Source: Chroococcidiopsidaceae cyanobacterium YX2bin18 (lineage in GTDB: Bacteria; Cyanobacteriota; Cyanobacteriia; Cyanobacteriales; Chroococcidiopsidaceae). From it: 64,000 nucleotides of DNA. Below, piece after piece: positions 5,821 through 60,717 of the stretch. How positions within the stretch are numbered: position 1 is the stretch's first letter; every line of letters begins with the position of its first letter. The stretch is from positions 1-64,000 of the forward strand of contig JAUJND010000010.1 in assembly GCA_030446505.1 (NCBI GenBank), read 5' to 3'. Under the pieces are notes generated by a model that saw only the letters and a program-made list of their open reading frames with translations, was not told where the DNA came from and did not search any database. A program made the position numbers and the translations under genes.

Positions 5821-6444
5821 TGTAGACCTCCTGAATTTTTCCAAGCGCCGATGCTGTAGCCACAATTTTATCGGCGTTCAGCAAATCATAAATATTTAAC
5901 TGAGTAGCTGAGATTAGCTTGAGATTAGCAACATTGCGACCCGACAAATAAATCGTTCCTGCTTGCTCAGGCAATATCAACAAAACCTTTGCTTGTGATG
6001 TTACTCCCCAACGGCTGATTGCCGCCATTAATTCCTTTGTTCTCGGGCGCGCTAGTTGCTCTCCAAAGTCTTCTACTACAATTAAGTCGTCGCCACGACT
6101 AAAAGCGCAGTACGCAGTGCTAAACGCAGCTCTTTCCGGTTCATTTTGATCTCATAGTCTCTCGGCTTTGGACCAAAAATGACACCGCCGCCACGCCATA
6201 ATGGTGAACGAATTGAGCCAGCTCTAGCGCGACCTGTTCCCTTTTGCCGCCAGGGTTTACGACCGCCACCCCTAACTTCAGAGCGAGTTTTTGTGCTGGC
6301 ATTTCCCTGCCTAGCATTAGTCATTTGTCTAACCAATGCTCTGTGGACAATATGAGCAGCAGTCTTTTCACTGGCAACCTTTAAATCCAGCGTTGTCTGC
6401 CCAACTTCTTCTCCTTGCCAGTTTCGTACTATACATTCAACCAT
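5813..6444 (-). CDS. rplD: 50S ribosomal protein L4, one frameshift
   Basis: L4 lines the exit tunnel and, in some bacteria, represses the S10 operon. The N-terminal part has [28 protein letters not shown] and ends at [12 protein letters not shown]. The C-terminal part starts before MAAISRWGV and ends VYNA. They join if one T is restored in the T-run near 6101, giving [17 protein letters not shown]. It lies 9 nt after rplC. Confidence 0.93.
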
Positions 6445-6453
6445 AGTAAGTTC

Positions 6454-7089
6454 CTATTTCCCCACAAGCGTTGCAGGCACAATACTCAGCAATGTACCAG
6501 GTTTACCAGGAATTGCTCCCTTAATTAGCAACAAGTTGCGTTCTGGGTCTACTCGCACTATGGTCAATTTACGAATTGTGATTCGCTTACCACCTAAACG
6601 ACCTGCCATCCGTTTTCCTGGATAAACGCGACCAGGAGTGGTGACAGGACCAATAGAACCGGGCGCTCGGTGATTTTTGGAACCATGAGACATTGGTCCC
6701 CGACCAAAGTTGTTTCGTTTCTGGTTGCCAGCAAAACCACGACCGATACTTGTACCGCTTACATCTACAACTTGTCCAGGAGTAAAAATATCGGTCTTAA
6801 TTTCTTGACCCATAGTATATTCACTCGTGTTATCTAGGTGATACTCACGCAGATGACGCAACGCTGGGGCAGATGATTTGGCAAGGTGACCCAATTCTGG
6901 CTTGTTCAGCGATTTTGGTTTCACTTCTTTAAATCCAACTTGGATGGCTTCATAACCATCAGTTTGTTTCGTTTTAATTTGCGTAACAGTGCATGGACCT
7001 GCTTGAACGACTGTTACAGGGATTGCTTTTCCTACTTCGTCAAACACTTGGGTCATGCCCAGCTTGGTGCCAAGGATACCTACAGACAC
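6454..7089 (-). CDS. rplC: 50S ribosomal protein L3
   Basis: This 211-residue L3 is an assembly initiator near the peptidyl-transferase centre. It starts [28 protein letters not shown] and includes the [23 protein letters not shown] loop region. It is the first gene of the cluster in this window, transcribed leftward, and is divergent from ndhN. Confidence 0.98.
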
Positions 7090-8063
7090 AGGTTTTTGGT
7101 CTCTCCTTTTTTCAAGAGTTATATTGAAACCGGATTACAACCATTTGCTGAATCCGCTTACTTCCTCATTAAGGCAATCAGAAATCATCCCTAATTTAGG
7201 AAAACTCCTTTTGTAAAGAAGTGGAGTAAGGTTTTAGCTAGCTTTAGTGAAGCAACATTTTATCTGAGCAATTGGTTTAGCAATACTTGGTCTCACTAAG
7301 ACTTAAGTGGTTTACCACTCAGTATCTGATGGCTGAGACTGAATACAATGCTGAAATAACTTACATTGCTGCTCATTTTTTGCTTCATAGACCCGTCTAA
7401 ACAAGCTTTGGGTCTTTGCCTGAAAATTTTCCAGACAACTTAAGTAGATGTTTATCATACAATAGATCTAGATTTGACAATTATCTAAACCATTGTACTT
7501 TTGCTGTTTTAGGACTTTATAAATTAGGCACACCTTAACGTGTCTTACATTATTTCGCTTATCCTATACAGGATGAAGCTATTAAGCTATTAAACTTAAG
7601 ACAAGATAAGAAAGTTATAAGTTGCTTTGTTTTTTGGTCACAGTCTACTATATTAAATCACTGCTTCAAAATTAGCAACTAGTCAAACAACATTTTCTAT
7701 AATCAGCAAATTAGGGCAGTATATAAATCACGTCACAAGTGAAAAAAAGACTGCTAGAGCTATTGAGTGAAAGCTCAGGGGTTTGAACCTGATAAGCATA
7801 GATACCTAAGTTCTCATGTAGAATAGGCAAGCAATTAGGTAATATATTTTTTAGATAAAAATAAGGGAACAACCTTTAGTGGTAGGTATTTAGCATGGAT
7901 CTGTCTTAGAGCATACTACCTTGTGGTAATTTCGTCTGAAGCAATTATTTTCCTAGCTTTAGTCCCACGTAGTTCTTAAGTTGCAGCATTGACGTGAATA
8001 TCTCTCTACATAGCTAGTTACGAACCAATTATTCAATAGATTCTAAGTGGGTTAGCTAAATCT
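7090..8063. other. Long AT-rich intergenic region between rplC and ndhN
   Basis: About 970 bp separate two divergent genes. I see no ORF with protein-like composition, no tRNA and no repeat array. It should hold the S10-cluster promoter and leader on the minus strand and the ndhN promoter on the plus strand. A minus-strand TTGTCA/TATGAT pair near 7453-7480 is a weak candidate for the former. Confidence 0.5.
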
Positions 8064-8531
8064 ATGGCACTCCTTACCACTGGTAGAAAACTGATTAAAG
8101 ACTTGGAAACATTTGGTGCTCTTGGGCTTTACGTACCTCCCGAAGGAGGCTTTGAAGGTCGTTACCGCCGCCGACTCCGCACTGCTGGCTATGTTACATT
8201 GCATATTACAGCACGAGGGTTGGGTGATTTGGCTGCGTATCTAACCGGAGTTCATGGAGTGCGTCCCGCTCATCTGGGGAAGAAAGACATCAGGGTTTAT
8301 TATTTGCCTCCTTTAGTAAGCTACCACCTAGAACAGCTACCTCCACATTCAAAAGGGCTAGTGTTATGGATTATAGAAGGACACCTGCTTTCAAATCAGG
8401 AAGTTGAGTTTTTAGCGACTTTGCCTAGTCGAGAGCCACGAGTGAAAGTGGCATTGGAAAGAGGAGGCGATCGCGCTTTTCGGTGGATGCCTTTACAAGA
8501 AACACTGTTGCCGAGTTATCAGAGTGTTTAG
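8064..8531 (+). CDS. ndhN: NAD(P)H-quinone oxidoreductase subunit N
   Basis: This 155-residue protein matches NdhN, a peripheral-arm subunit specific to cyanobacterial and chloroplast NDH-1. NDH-1 drives cyclic electron flow and respiration at the thylakoid membrane. Diagnostic blocks are LETFGALGLYVPPEGGFEGRY, ARGLGDLAAYLTGVHGVRP and KGLVLWIIEGHLLS. It is divergent from rplC. Confidence 0.95.
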   Translation: MALLTTGRKLIKDLETFGALGLYVPPEGGFEGRYRRRLRTAGYVTLHITARGLGDLAAYLTGVHGVRPAHLGKKDIRVYYLPPLVSYHLEQLPPHSKGLVLWIIEGHLLSNQEVEFLATLPSREPRVKVALERGGDRAFRWMPLQETLLPSYQSV

Positions 8532-37234: not shown

Positions 37235-39231
37235 CTACCGAGACTTCAATTCAGATATTGCGCTCTTTGTCAACCCCGCGATCGCCTGATCTGTCGCCTT
37301 TGGTAAATGGTAATACTTCCCTCCTGCCTGCTGTGCCAGTTCCTTGGCAAACCCAGTGGAGATAAACTTATTCTCCGTGTCAATCACCAACATCTGCATT
37401 CCCAACGCCCGAATTCTAGCAGCAATTTCTAACAGTTCTCCTTTAATATCCGGCTTTTCCCCTTCTTGTAGCGGTTCACCAAGCGAACGCGCTAGAGAAA
37501 TATTTCCCCGCCCGTCTGTAATCGCCACAATTACAACTTGCCCAATATCGCCACCCATTCGAGCATTAGTGCCTACTCTCACCGCCTGAGTCAAACCATG
37601 AGCTAGAGGCGAACCACCACCACAAGGCATTCGTTCCAGCCGTCGCCGTGCTGAGGCAATTGAACGAGTCGGGGGTAAAAGTACCTCAGCTTGTTCTCCC
37701 CGGAAGGGAATCAGCGCCACCTGGTCACGATTTTCATAAGCTTCTGTCAATAGCCGCAACACAGCACCCTTAGCCGACTGCATCCGATTCAGCGCCATTG
37801 AGCCGGAGGCATCAACCACAAACACAACCAACGCCCCAGCTTTGCGGACTAAGCGCTTTGCCCGAATATCGCCCTGCTCAACAATTACTCGCTTACCAGG
37901 TTGCCTCTCACGCCGAGCTTTTTGATACGGCGCAGGCTGCTCTAAGTGTGGCATCAACGGCAATGCGTCGCACGGGGCCTTTAGGTAACATCGGCTTAAC
38001 ATAGCGACCCCGATCTTCGGAATAAATCAAACTACGACTACCAGATTTGCCCCGCCGTTGAGCCATTTGAGCAAAGTAAAGCACACTGGGGTCAAGGATG
38101 ACTCCTTCAGGGTCAAAAACAAATTCTTCTGGAATACTCGGCGGTTCTTGCTCGTCAGGTTCTTCAGGATTTTCGTCTTCTTCCTCCTCCTGCTCTTGTT
38201 CCGATTCATCCTGACTCTCAGGCGGTGGTGGCGGTGGCGGTGGTGGTTCTTCCGGTGGCGTTTGCACAATAGTTGCCCGTGGCACAATTACCAATTCCAC
38301 GGCACGGCGCAAATCTTCTGCATTCACTTGTGTCCGCCCATCAAGGCAGCAGATGCCTTGGCGACTCGTAGGGCAAATAACTCGGCTCGATGTCCCTGCA
38401 CTCCAGCCCGAATTGCCTCGTCAACTAAATAGGCAATTTGCTCATGAGTTACGCAGACATCCTTCAGCCATTCCCGCGCCAAAATAATCTGGGTTTTGAG
38501 GTCGTCAAGTCTTCGCTGTACTGATTCAGAAACTTCTGGGGTGAGGCGGCGTATTGGATAACTTGGTCTACTGCCTGGACTCGTTCATCTAATGCTAGTA
38601 CACCATCAGCGCTAAGTGCGATCGCTATTCTGTCCAGCAAATGTTCCCGCAGCGCTCCTTCTTCTGGGTTGTAGGTAGCAATAAATAGCGGTTTGCAAGG
38701 ATGCTGAAAACTAATGCCTTCCCGCTCAATTCGGTTGCGTCCCTCGGTTAATACCGTTAACAGTTGGTTGCTGATATTGTCATCAAGTAAATTAATTTCA
38801 TCTATATACAAAACGCCCCGGTGTGCCTGTGCCAGTAACCCTGGTTGAAACACTGGTTCGCCCTGTTTCACAGACTTCTCTACATCTACTGAACCCAGAA
38901 GTCGGTCTTCTGTGACTCCCCAAGGAATCTGCACGAAAGGCGCTGGGATAACTTCTGTAGTCAGCGTAGCGTTGCCTATTGCCAAAAGTTGGCTGTCCCA
39001 TTCTTCAGGATAGTTTGGATCGCAGTTGCTAATCGAACCTTTAACCACTTCAATCGGTGGCAGGAGAGCGTAAAGGGCGCGAGCCATAATGGATTTAGCA
39101 GTGCCGCGACGACCAGCGATCGCCACTCCCCCCAACCCCGGATCAACTGCTGCTAACAGCAAGGCTAATTTAATCGCTTCTTGACCAACTACCGCGCTCA
39201 GCGGAAAAGCAGGCATAAAGAGTGCAGTCAT
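37235..39231 (-). CDS. chlD: Magnesium chelatase subunit D, reading frame broken
   Basis: The reconstructed protein (about 665 residues) has three parts. An AAA+ domain starts [25 protein letters not shown], with GRRGTAKS and DEINLLDDN. An acidic/Pro-rich linker ([25 protein letters not shown]) follows. The C-terminal VWA domain has [20 protein letters not shown] and MIDAS-type residues. ChlD with ChlI and ChlH inserts Mg into protoporphyrin IX, the first committed step to chlorophyll. Indels occur near 38507, 38347 and 37945. The gene is essential in phototrophs, so errors are likely. Confidence 0.93.
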
Positions 39232-40503: not shown

Positions 40504-40747
40504 TATGGCTCAGGTATAAGTAAGGCGTAGGTAAGTAAATTCCCCAGCTTAGGTTAGTTTAGCAATTTAGGAGTTAATGAAGTTCGTTTATTAGAATGTT
40601 CATCCACCGAAAGGTATAAATTCAGCTAATATCTCTACTATGCTTCATCTGGCTCTAACTATCATTGCAACAGTCGCACATAGTATCTGCCTGAAGAAAG
40701 GTTTATTTACTAGGCGAACAATGATAAAGTCTTGTGAAATTTGAATA

Positions 40748-40925
40748 AGTCAGCCTAATCCAGTGCTTCACCTGAAAAAATTGGTGTGAGGTGAAGCTGG
40801 AGCGGAGGAACCATTTTTGGGGCGTATCTCTAACTTTAGTTCTTGTTAATTAAGAGCGAGGCGAGAAGGACATTTCTCAGTCCTAGCCCGTCAGCTAACT
40901 TCGTAGGCATTGAGAGGAGACTGAA
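40748..40925 (+). promoter_or_regulatory. ydaO/yuaA-class riboswitch (c-di-AMP)
   Basis: The 5' half reads GAGCGGAGGAACCATTTTTG with a following GGGGCGTATC. The 3' half carries the class hallmark CCCGTCAGCTAACTTCGTAG, then GCATTGAGAGGAGACTGA. TCAG near 40750 can pair with CTGA near 40924 to close the P1 stem. In the known class these blocks bind two c-di-AMP molecules in a pseudo-twofold pocket, and binding usually switches the downstream gene off. It ends about 95 nt before the nrtB start, in the same direction. No other known class shares this 3' motif. Confidence 0.88.
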
Positions 40926-41019
40926 TCAGCATTCTTCGTAATGTTTTGATATCATCAGTGTCCTTGGCTCGTAACGCTCAGTGTTTGTTGTACCTGCTCT
41001 CGACTCTGAGGAGTATAAA

Positions 41020-41874
41020 GTGACATTGCAACTGAATCTTGCTGCGATCGCAGTGGCTGGACAAGCTGCCTGGAGACGTACTAAACCCATTGTCATTCAG
41101 GATGTTATCTTACTGCCTTTAGCTGGTTTTTTAGGGGTTATCTTACTGTGGTGGTTTATTGCCACATTCTTGACTGATTTAATGCCTACTCCAGGTTGAG
41201 GCACTGGTAGAGAATTTAGACAATATCATGCATCCTTTCTATCAACGGGGACCTGGTAACTTAGGACTCGGTTGGTTATTACTAGCGAGTCTAAGACGGG
41301 TATTGATTGGCTTTGCACTGGGTGCGATCGTCGCCATTCCTGTTGGGTTTTTGATCGGAATGTCCAAGAAAGCGATGCTGGCACTCAATCCAATCATCCA
41401 GATATTCAAGCCGGTATCGCCCCTAGCTTGGCTTCCCATTTCACTAGCAATTTTTAACCTGGCAGATCCCTCTGCCATTTTTGTTATTTTCATTACCTCG
41501 TTGTGTACCACGATTATTAACACCGCCTTTGGCGTCTCCAGTGTTTCCAAAGACTACATAGACGTGGCGCGAGTGCTGGAAATGCCTAGATGGCGACGGA
41601 TTACAAAAATTATTTGGCTGCCAGTTTGCCTTATATTTTTACTGGCTTGCGAATTAGTTTAGGAATTGCTTGGCTAGTTATTGTTGCCGTAGAAATGCTC
41701 ACTGGCGGCGTTGGTATTGGCTTTTTTGTCTGGGATGAGTGGAGCCGTCTAAATCTAAGTTCAGTCTTTTTAGCGGTATTAGTAATTGGCTTAACGGGGC
41801 TAGTTCTTGACTACGCTGTAGGCAAAATTCAGGAATTAGTTACCCGTCGCCCAGCACGCCAAACTGAAATCTAA
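41020..41874 (+). CDS. nrtB: Nitrate-type ABC transporter permease, reading frame broken
   Basis: The likely start is GTG 41020 (TLQLNLAAIAVAGQAAW) with a GAGGAG ribosome site. Restoring frames gives PTPVEALVENLDNIMHPFYQRGPGNLG, WLPISLAIFNLADPSAIF and LPASLPYIFTGLRISLGIAWL. Indels occur near 41196 (extra G) and about 41620. There are about six transmembrane helices and an EAA-type loop. NrtB forms the channel of the nitrate/nitrite uptake system. Cyanate and bicarbonate permeases are close relatives, so the substrate is inferred. It is the first gene after the riboswitch. Confidence 0.85.
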
Positions 41875-42015: not shown

Positions 42016-43438
42016 ATGAGCGATACTTCCCAAAATCACTGGAATCGACGCAACTTTCTCAAGGGAGTCGGAGCAACGGCAAGCTGGTATGGCAGTTTCC
42101 TCTTGTGCGATTAACGCTAGTAAAGCGCCTCAGGGACTATCTCAAGCTGCCCTAGCGGTAGAACAAGTGGTAGACTCTAGTACCCTGGAAAAACCAAATC
42201 TAACCGTGGGGTATGTGCCAGTAAATGACTGCGCCCCCTTTGCCGTTGCCTGGGAAAAAGGTTTTTTTCGCAAGTATGGGTTAAATGTGCAACTCAGTAG
42301 AGAGGCAAGCTGGGGTACGTCTCGTGACGGAATTATTTTTGGTCGCCTTGATGCTTCTCCGGTTGTGTGTGGCGCTGTAACCAATGCTAGAACTGGTGCA
42401 GAAGGCGCACGTCATGCTCCCCTTTGTGCCGCGATGACGATTCACCGCCACGGTAACGCCTTGACGATGAATAAAGCAATGTGGGAATCGGGGTTGCGTC
42501 CTTGGCGAGAATACAACGGGGATTTAGAGGATTTTGGACGTGATTTTAGACGCTACTTTGATAACATTCCCTCAGAGCAACGAGTCTGGGCAGTTGTACT
42601 TAGTTCTTCAATCTACGAATACTTTGTCCGCTACTTGTCTGCTGCTGCTGGGGTAGCTCCCGACGATGAATTTCGGATCGTCATTATTCCGCCGCCGCAA
42701 ATGGTGGTGAATATGCGGATTGGGGCGATGCAAGCTTATATGGTAGCAGAACCTTGGAATACACGCGCTATTACTGGTAATGAAGGGATTGGCTTTACCT
42801 TCGCTCAGGGCAGAGAAATCTGGCAAGGACACCCGGATCGACTTTTGGGCGTGATGGAGTCCTTCATTAATGAGAATCCTAAAACTTATCGTTCCTTAGT
42901 CAAAGCGATGATTGAAGCTTGCCAGTATTGCAGCGAACAGAAAAATCGGGAGGAGGTTGCCAAGCTGATCTCAGACAAGTCATTTACTGGTGCTAAACCT
43001 AATTTGACTCGTGCTGCGATTGTTGGTGAATATAATTATGGCGGCTTTGATGGCAAAAAACGGATTGTGCGATCGCCTGACACAACTATTTTCTTTGACC
43101 TGCCGCCAAACCTTGCTAGAGTGCCAGGAGATCATTCAACATTTCTATGGCAGTCAGAAAGTATCTGGTTAATGACTCAGGCTGCTCGTTGGGGACAAAC
43201 TCCTGGCATTCCCAAAAATGCAGAAGCATTAGCCCGTAAAGCTTGGAGAACTGACCTTTATCGTGAAATTGCTGCTGAAATGGACATTGAGTGTCCCCAA
43301 GAAGACTACAAAATTGAACCCGCTGAAGTATTCATAGACAACAGAGAGTTTGATCCCAGCGATCCAGTAGGCTATCTGAATAGTTTTGAAATTAGAGCTA
43401 ACCGCCCCAAATCCTTTTTTTTAGGGGCTAGGAGCTAG
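42016..43438 (+). CDS. nrtA: NrtA/CmpA-family substrate-binding protein, frameshift in signal region
   Basis: The start at 42016 (MSDTSQNHWNRRNFLKGVGATAS) has a Tat-type signal. One extra base near 42086 separates it from MAVSSCAINASKAPQ. The mature part has NLTVGYVPVNDCAPFAVAWEKGFFRKYGL, GGVTNARTGAEGA-like VVCGAVTNARTGAEGARHAP and PEDFKIEPAEVFIDNREFD-type (QEDYKIEPAEVFIDNREFDPSDP) motifs. It captures the anion outside the membrane. It matches the cyanobacterial nitrate/bicarbonate family, about 450-470 residues. Confidence 0.85.
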
Positions 43439-54017: not shown

Positions 54018-55112
54018 TTAAGCTTGCATCTGCCGCAATACTTGCCTAATGGTATCTGCTGGCACTTGGTCAGTTACAGTTGCTGCACCAATTTGGGTAG
54101 GGAGGACAAATCGGACACGACCGGCTGCGACTTTCTTATCAGTTTGCAGAGCATCTAAAATTGCTGCAATATCAACACCATGCTGGCAGTTGTGTAGGCA
54201 GCCCAGCTTTTGAATTAGAGCCATCTGACGCTCTTGCGCTACCTGTTCCCAAAACTTGAGTTCTACAGCTAGTTGCCCTGCTGCTACCATTCCAATCGCC
54301 ACCGCTTCACCATGATTGACAGAACGATAACCTGTTAAACTTTCAACTGCATGACCAATAGTATGACCGTAGTTGAGAATCGCCCGCAGCCCTGCTTCTT
54401 TTTCATCCTTACTGACAACATCAGCTTTAGCTTGACAAGAACGAGAGAGAATTTGTTGTAATAGACCTGCGTTTAAGTAACGGCGTTGATCCAGGCGCTT
54501 ACTTTGTTCCAATTGGGCAAATAAATCAGCGTCCCAAATCACACCGTACTTAATTACCTCGCCATTCCCGCCCGAAATTCCCGTACTGGTAGCGTGTTTA
54601 GTACCTGCGGGTCAATTAAAAACTAGCCTGGGTTGATAAAATGCTCCAATCAGGTTTTTGCCTTGGGGATGATTTGCGCCAGTTTTACCGATCACTGCAT
54701 CAACCATTGCTAGTAAGGTTGTTGGTACTTGCACAAAGTTAATGCCCCGCAGCCAAGTAGCAGCAGCAAGCCCAGTCATATCACCAATCACACCTCCACC
54801 TAAAGCAACCAGCGTTGAGGAGCGCTCTAGACGGTTTTCCAGGGCTGCATTGTAGATTTTCTGAATTGAGGCGAGGTTTTTGTAGCGTTCACCCGCCGGA
54901 AGATTACAGACAGCAACCTCAAACCCAGCAGATTTTAGAGAAGTAATTGCTCGTTCACCGTAATGCCGTTCGATTATTGGACTGGAAACAAGCAAGACTT
55001 TCTTACCCAAGTTAAGCTTGGTCATGAATTGACCTAGCTGATCTAGAACGTGATCGGCGATCGCAATTTGGTAAGGGTGCTGCGGTAAATCTACATGGAC
55101 AACAGAATGCAT
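54018..55112 (-). CDS. aroB: 3-dehydroquinate synthase, reading frame broken
   Basis: The track gives two ORFs. The N-terminal part has [61 protein letters not shown]. The C-terminal part has [14 protein letters not shown], the zinc-binding region. Two indels near 54612 and 54556 break the link ([21 protein letters not shown]). AroB converts DAHP to 3-dehydroquinate in the shikimate pathway. The ATG at 55112 ([14 protein letters not shown]), preceded by AGGGG, is the better start than 55133. Confidence 0.93.
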
Positions 55113-55206
55113 GACAAAACCCCTACTCTCCAAGCGCCTCTAATCGCTCTATTTTACGCCGCTAGATGATTCAATAGTCCTTATGTAGTTCTAGCGAAGA
55201 AAGGAA

Positions 55207-59674: not shown

Positions 59675-59789
59675 TTGCTGCTCGAACTATTCACCTTAAT
59701 TTTGTTTTTTTATGTACTTGTTAGCTTATCTCATTGTCCACAACTGAAAATACTCTTTCTTAACTGAATTTAGTTTACAAAGTAGAAAC

Positions 59790-60717
59790 TCAGTTACGAA
59801 AGTCACAACTAAGAATACCTTGGTCTGCATCCAACTGTACCAATATGCCTCCACACACTGGTAGTGCTGCATCAACTGCTTAACCGCTCTGGTAGCGCTG
59901 CAACCATCATGACCAAAGGGGAGGTTAGAGACAATCGGAATATCTAAATCACTCAAGCGATCGCGTAGCACCTCTTCAAGCGTCAAACTAGGAATATTTG
60001 GTGGTGGTTCACAGCGGCTAAAGCGTCCTAGCGCAATGCCTCGAACTTTTGATAATGCACCACTCAAGCGCCATTGCGTCAGCAATCTATCAATGCGATA
60101 AGGAGCCTCTGTCACATCCTCCAAAGCCAGAATTACGCCATCAAAATTTGGTTGGAGGGTGTACCGAGTAGATGGGTAGCAACGGTGAGATTGGCTGGTA
60201 ATAAAATACCTGTAGCATTGCCACCGCCCCAACCTGTACCCTTAAGAGGAGATAAAGAGCGACCTTCCACTAAATCGAATAATCGCTGAACTGACCAATC
60301 CGGTTCAGCCGCCAAAGTAGTTAGTACCGGACCATGAACACCTGAAATACCAATTAGACTTAAACTCCAGAGTAAAGCGGTAATATCAGAAAAGCCAATT
60401 AGCCACTTTGATTCATTTTTAGACCAAACCCAGTCTTCTAAGATTCTGGCGCTACCATAACCCCCTCTGGCGCAGAGAATAGCGCGACATTCTGGATCTT
60501 GCCAAGCCCTGAGTAGTTGATGACGGCGATCGCTATCTGTTCCTGCTAAATAACCCCAGCGATTATCAATTTTGGTGCTGATTTCTACCCGATAGCCGCG
60601 CGATCGCCAAATCTGCACACCTAAATTAAACGCCTGCGTTTCTCTTAATGCACCACTAGGTGCAATTACTTGCAGTAAATCTCCTTGTTTTAATGGTGGT
60701 GGTAACTGGCAATTCAT
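59790..60717 (-). CDS. ldcA: LD-carboxypeptidase (S66), reading frame broken
   Basis: The N-terminal part starts MNCQLPPPLKQGDLLQVIAPSGALRETQAF and has WLIGFSDITALL with the catalytic Ser (GFSD). The C-terminal part has GVILALEDVTEAPYRIDRLLTQWRLSG and IPIVSNLPFGHDG. A frameshift near 60140 separates them. Near 59860-59900 a partial duplication of GCAGCnCTACCAG breaks the tail, which ends LDADQGILSCDFRN at 59790. LD-carboxypeptidases remove the terminal D-Ala from muropeptides in recycling. Confidence 0.85.

Follow-up and report, generated by a model that had tools for sequence, protein, structure and literature searches.

A predicted c-di-AMP riboswitch with a shared cyanobacterial 3′ domain upstream of an Nrt/Cmp-related importer operon

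The leader of a transporter operon within the 64,000-nucleotide stretch of cyanobacterial DNA analysed here (the window) is best explained as a genuine c-di-AMP riboswitch that controls a third Nrt/Cmp-related importer operon through a translational strand swap in the domain 3′ of the aptamer. We consider this explanation as a whole probable; ligand binding, translational control and the cargo are what we infer from sequence. The aptamer itself is typical of an already known RNA class, and the interest lies in its conserved target and expression platform rather than in the aptamer. If the explanation is true, an uncharacterised ABC importer would have a regulator, and its physiology could be tested in the context of c-di-AMP, turgor and the day-night cycle.

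The aptamer and its conserved position

The original prediction had recognised two ydaO-class hallmarks on the plus strand and placed the RNA 95 nt before an nrtB gene. Both segments, GAGCGGAGGAACC and CCCGTCAGCTAACTTCGTAG, were located (Table 1), and a cmscan search of the whole window against Rfam returned a full-length match to the c-di-AMP riboswitch model RF00379 at 40742-40924 on the plus strand (model positions 1-134, 72.3 bits against a gathering cut-off of 38 bits, E = 7.7e-15). This was the single gathering-level Rfam match in the window and the sole c-di-AMP riboswitch detected in the source genome, G000. The spacing was also as predicted, with 95 nt between the 3′ end of the aptamer and the permease GTG at 41020. 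A pseudoknot between an aptamer loop and a GAGAG tail is a feature of the c-di-AMP riboswitch class. In the window the loop UCUC is complementary to the tail GAGAGG, and a run of at least five pairs between the loop region and the tail was present in 73/73 orthologous leaders, a figure that carries no chance baseline; this pairing may close the aptamer. We conclude that the RNA at 40742-40924 is a genuine c-di-AMP riboswitch, with c-di-AMP as its predicted ligand.

Table 1. Features of the riboswitch leader and the downstream operon (window positions)
Feature	Position	Strand	Evidence
c-di-AMP riboswitch aptamer (RF00379)	40742-40924	+	cmscan 72.3 bits, gathering 38, full-length
Aptamer hallmark GAGCGGAGGAACC	40800-40812	+	sequence
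Loop UCUC, candidate pseudoknot partner of tail GAGAGG 40912-40917	40875-40878	+	complementarity
Aptamer hallmark CCCGTCAGCTAACTTCGTAG	40887-40906	+	sequence
Conserved cyanobacterial 3′ domain (candidate expression platform), model R1	40909-41022	+	87.3 bits, E 7e-22; covariation
Helix H1 5′ strand GGAGACUGA (aptamer tail)	40916-40924	+	pairs with 40955-40963
H1/H2 3′ strand AUCAUCAGUGUC, can pair with the aptamer tail or the ribosome-binding region	40951-40962	+	duplex energies
Helix H1 3′ strand UCAGUGUCC	40955-40963	+	pairs with 40916-40924
Shine-Dalgarno region of the permease gene, GACUCUGAGGAG	41002-41013	+	sequence; complementary to 40951-40962
NrtB-type permease gene, frame-broken in the assembly	41020-41874	+	three frames; PF00528; TIGR01183 below cut-off for the fragment
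NMT1_2-type substrate-binding protein, twin-arginine signal MSDTSQNHWNRRNFLKG	42016-43438	+	PF13379 E 6.5e-64; main frame 42089-43438
NrtC/D-type ATPase without the NrtC regulatory domain, 279 aa	43520-44359	+	TIGR01184 358 bits, above cut-off

The position of the aptamer was compared across the 80 loci with the closest binding proteins in a collection of named genomes, 77 of which had enough upstream sequence. The original prediction had proposed looking for the same RNA before orthologous permease genes, and a regular-expression search located both hallmarks upstream of the permease, at a distance of approximately 1.0-1.6 kb from the binding-protein match, at 73 of the 77 loci. One further aptamer (L150) was recovered by cmscan, that of L145 lies 3.4 kb upstream, and neither method detected an aptamer upstream of the operon at L163 and L169. 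RF00379 was not found at seven loci with other nrt/cmp-family binding proteins (L121-L124 and L130-L132), which include cmp- and nrt-type operons. In a survey of 60 relatives, 43 carried a c-di-AMP riboswitch, and most genomes with an orthologous binding protein had the aptamer at the operon. The orthologue itself was present in 34 of 194 genomes drawn evenly across the phylum. These results support an aptamer placed to control the Nrt-type ABC importer in a strongly conserved arrangement, and what is kept at the 73 loci would be a leader position before a transporter of ion/osmolyte type. Two loci depart from the complete arrangement. L060 (G014) appears to hold a decayed copy, in which an intact aptamer is followed only by fragments of the three genes for permease, binding protein and ATPase. 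L034 (G003) retains the aptamer, the 3′ domain and a remnant of the permease start, with a DASS/ArsB-like gene next, which looks like loss of the transporter with retention of the riboswitch.

The 3′ domain as a candidate translational switch

The orthologous leaders are conserved between the aptamer and the start codon. A covariance model of this region, R1, was built from 30 orthologous leaders with the window kept out of the training set, and it matched the window leader (Table 1). R1 also matched directly behind the aptamers of several other target genes; some cyanobacterial c-di-AMP riboswitches lack the domain, and an R1 search did not find it at cmp- or nrt-type loci. The proposed structure contains three helices, for which 88.9% of cells were paired over 30 distinct leaders compared with at most 42.7% in slid structures, a percentage biased towards the structure because this was drawn from the same sequences. 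Double changes are the better evidence, and 34 such cells were observed in the 30 leaders against 14.3 in shuffles. Helix H1, between the aptamer tail GGAGACUGA and UCAGUGUCC, was 93% paired over 30 sequences with two pairs changed on both sides, and helix H3 looks weak in the window leader. By inspection, the H3 loop UGCUC is complementary to the aptamer core GAGCGG in numerous leaders, though some lineages lack this complementarity.

The strand AUCAUCAGUGUC could take part in two competing interactions, with the aptamer tail or with the Shine-Dalgarno region GACUCUGAGGAG. Mean energies of the strand-Shine-Dalgarno duplex over 31 dereplicated leaders were -12.7 kcal/mol within the same species, -10.3 kcal/mol when species were swapped and -8.4 kcal/mol for shuffled sequences. 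None of 5000 permutations gave a mean as low as the own-species value in a test that ignores relatedness. At the level of individual leaders, 14 of 31 reached p ≤ 0.05 against shuffled sequences, and some own-species duplexes were no better than shuffled ones. The Shine-Dalgarno pairing of the window leader, at -9.8 kcal/mol, is weaker than H1/H2 at -17.8 kcal/mol, and several orthologous leaders have no recognisable Shine-Dalgarno sequence. The apparent coevolution of this alternative pairing, together with the 3′ domain, suggests a translational switch. Pairing of the strand with the aptamer tail in H1/H2 would leave the ribosome-binding region free, while pairing with the ribosome-binding region would cover it. 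Binding of c-di-AMP would shift the balance between the two pairings and so change translation of the operon, the aptamer probably acting through the conserved 3′ domain.

Transcription attenuation as in Bacillus, with the H1/H2/H3 domain serving another role such as RNA stability or pausing, is in our judgement unlikely. The well-described Bacillus thuringiensis kdpFABC riboswitch, similarly a c-di-AMP aptamer upstream of a transporter operon, is a transcriptional OFF switch with an intrinsic terminator (PMC6488665), whereas no intrinsic terminator was found in the window between 40450 and 41100. The leader contains no terminator-like hairpin with a U-run, and in the aligned leaders no U-run follows H1. 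Attenuation would accommodate the orthologous leaders that lack a Shine-Dalgarno sequence, and thermodynamic folding of whole leaders, which gave neither two separate states nor consistent occlusion of the Shine-Dalgarno region, is also in its favour; the coevolving Shine-Dalgarno pairing argues against it. We favour the translational switch because no terminator was seen and because the Shine-Dalgarno pairing coevolves. A sigma-70 promoter was not found in the leader, and the aptamer tail gave no signal of coevolution with the aptamer body or the 5′ flank.

To our knowledge, the described c-di-AMP riboswitches are OFF switches. Since these class members lower expression, we lean slightly, by analogy, towards c-di-AMP lowering expression of the operon. 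The way in which H1 abuts the aptamer tail would fit an ON switch equally. A second leader type was noticed by inspection behind the c-di-AMP aptamers of other genes (L035, L037, L043, L048, L051, L056, L058 and L074). Here the tail GGAGUACCU can pair with AGGGUCUCC, the GGGUC of AGGGUCUCC also complements GACCC, and ACCUC can cover the Shine-Dalgarno sequence (GAGGU). Formation of the first helix in this type would act opposite to the window platform.

The importer, its probable cargo and its broken frames

Downstream of the aptamer, and on the same strand, lie an NrtB-like permease, an NMT1_2-type binding protein and an NrtD-like ATPase. The TIGR01183, TIGR01184 and NMT1_2 subunit families are all represented, with the ATPase above the TIGR01184 cut-off and the binding protein matching PF13379. 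The central permease fragment scores 138 bits against TIGR01183, below the cut-off of 209 bits, while an intact orthologue is above it at 231.5 bits. The gene named nrtB in the original prediction is thus nrtB-like by family, but it does not form a single open frame in the window. The window ORFs include no NrtC-type ATPase with a C-terminal regulatory domain; a single 279-aa ATPase is present instead.

In a tree, 88 binding proteins group as a separate clade with a local support of 0.857 on its branch, and they are 67-91% identical within the group and approximately 30-42% identical to the NrtA, CmpA and NrtC/CmpC types. His196 and Lys269 of NrtA balance the charge of nitrate, and CmpA differs at these positions and uses calcium (PMC8786288), its residue at the first of them being Gln198 (PMC11349869). 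Published work connects both residues with the choice between nitrate and bicarbonate, and all 88 clade members differ at both, with Tyr at the His196 position and Arg at the Lys269 position. The Arg keeps a basic residue in the pocket, and Trp102 is also kept. The operon resembles NrtABCD in its families of permease, Tat-type binding protein and NrtD-like ATPase, but it lacks the NrtC regulatory-domain subunit, has the Tyr/Arg pair and is preceded by an aptamer that the scanned nrt-type loci lack. With CmpABCD (BCT1) it shares the NMT1_2 binding-protein family; in contrast to the Gln198/Glu270 and calcium of CmpA the window clade has Tyr/Arg, and a CmpC-type subunit is missing. The operon is best explained, from these sequence comparisons, as a third Nrt/Cmp-related cyanobacterial importer distinct from NrtABCD and CmpABCD. 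Its cargo would most likely be a small anion or anionic solute, taken up as part of ion and osmotic balance.

The original prediction had placed the riboswitch before a nitrate-type ABC transporter and proposed that c-di-AMP is linked to nitrogen supply. The c-di-AMP class aptamer, the Nrt-type importer and their conserved placement are supported; nitrate as the cargo and the tie to nitrogen supply are not supported. The prediction had itself marked the substrate of the transporter as inferred. We regard it as distinctly unlikely that the operon imports nitrate or nitrite and that the riboswitch ties c-di-AMP directly to nitrogen supply. The subunits do match nitrate-named family models, and the retained Arg and Trp102 of the pocket would suit such a cargo. 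In the nearest outgroup is a 42%-identical binding protein whose gene immediately precedes nirA in G020, and the related regulatory domain of CmpC has been reported as a nitrate sensor (PMC13249358). Against these points are the separate clade and the invariant replacement of His196 by Tyr and Lys269 by Arg. In most genomes the orthologue coexists with several other paralogues, of cmp and probably of nrt type; in the host genome, C28 carries a cmp-type operon and C66 a second, frame-broken one. The neighbouring genes also argue against nitrogen supply, with nirA near only 1 of the 80 loci and, instead, a DASS/ArsB-like permease at 33/80 and a Usp protein at 41/80, all on the same strand; the riboswitch regulon consists likewise of ion and osmolyte genes. 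The annotation of such genes as nitrate transporters is probably wrong. The G020 cousin (L123, 3875-5320) is at a locus without a riboswitch, where the gene at 6271-8238 appears from its sequence to encode a ferredoxin-nitrite reductase with a fused ferredoxin-like domain.

The permease is split into three pieces (41020-41196, 41228-41662 and 41590-41874) by at least two frame breaks, and one break in the binding protein puts its Tat start at 42016 out of frame with the body; the intact orthologue at L077 has the Tat signal in frame, with a TIGR01409 Tat match. G001, a genome of the same genus, covers the second and third permease pieces in adjoining, non-overlapping stretches. Other ordinary or housekeeping genes of the window are likewise split, such as an aroB-like gene (54018-54542 and 54612-55133), which suggests many indel errors in the assembly. 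Since the G001 pieces adjoin and other window genes are split, assembly or sequencing errors are a likelier cause of the broken frames than decay. That these breaks mark a decaying pseudogene set with a relic riboswitch is improbable, as the split aroB-like gene and another paralogue of the host genome with many in-frame stops point to assembly error, the operon protein fragments are still 82-95% identical to G001 and the aptamer scores well. The source genome is a draft of 153 contigs that is 73.5% complete, and among the named genomes of the collection the closest to it is a Gloeocapsa metagenome assembly (L133), whose binding protein is 91% identical. Frameshift-split ordinary genes were noticed at 37235-39231, 54018-55133 and 59726-60717; we take these to be chlD-like, aroB-like and LD-carboxypeptidase-like, respectively.

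Other targets and relation to known systems

The other cyanobacterial targets of c-di-AMP riboswitches include antiporters, DASS/ArsB-like anion permeases, Usp proteins, a sodium/proton-exchanger-type protein, a P-type ATPase and a sucrose-synthase-like glycosyltransferase. We take Synechocystis slr0753 to be a member of the DASS/ArsB-like family. The types of gene in this regulon are consistent with published work that implicates c-di-AMP in the osmotic and salt acclimation of cyanobacteria (PMC5986932) and with the c-di-AMP riboswitch reported for slr0753, a putative chloride efflux gene (PMC10117731). The slr0753 and window riboswitches are both cyanobacterial members of the class, the former controlling a secondary permease and the latter preceding an ABC importer. 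At many loci the window-type operon has a DASS/ArsB-like permease gene next to it, and several of these permease genes carry this 3′ domain as well. A search of the source genome, which is 73.5% complete, gave no diadenylate cyclase (PF02457). Because 19 of 20 relatives have PF02457 and the genome is incomplete, the missing cyclase is probably an assembly gap.

Similar to the ydaO/yuaA leader (RF00379), the window leader gives a full-length covariance match with both hallmarks and a tail complementary to an aptamer loop. It differs from that leader in having no terminator, in its conserved cyanobacterial domain of ~115 nt with the candidate Shine-Dalgarno pairing, and in its Nrt-type target. 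The RNA class is already known and its presence in cyanobacteria already reported. A literature search for c-di-AMP riboswitches before nitrate-type transporters, with the original survey (Nelson 2013) outside its scope, returned nothing relevant. The target, conserved at almost all orthologous operons, and the shared cyanobacterial platform may be new, the platform being undescribed in the literature so covered. A broader proposal, which we put forward tentatively and with some doubt, is a lineage-specific cyanobacterial c-di-AMP riboswitch with a strand-swapping 3′ domain, possibly an ON switch, that would control a third NrtA/CmpA-superfamily anion importer within an ion-homeostasis regulon of DASS-type permeases, antiporters and Usp proteins.

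Two or three c-di-AMP riboswitches occur in tandem at L077 (5986-12257) and also at L082, L086, L046 and L055. These clusters precede a DASS/ArsB-like permease, an operon of permease, binding protein and ATPase, and/or a Usp gene.
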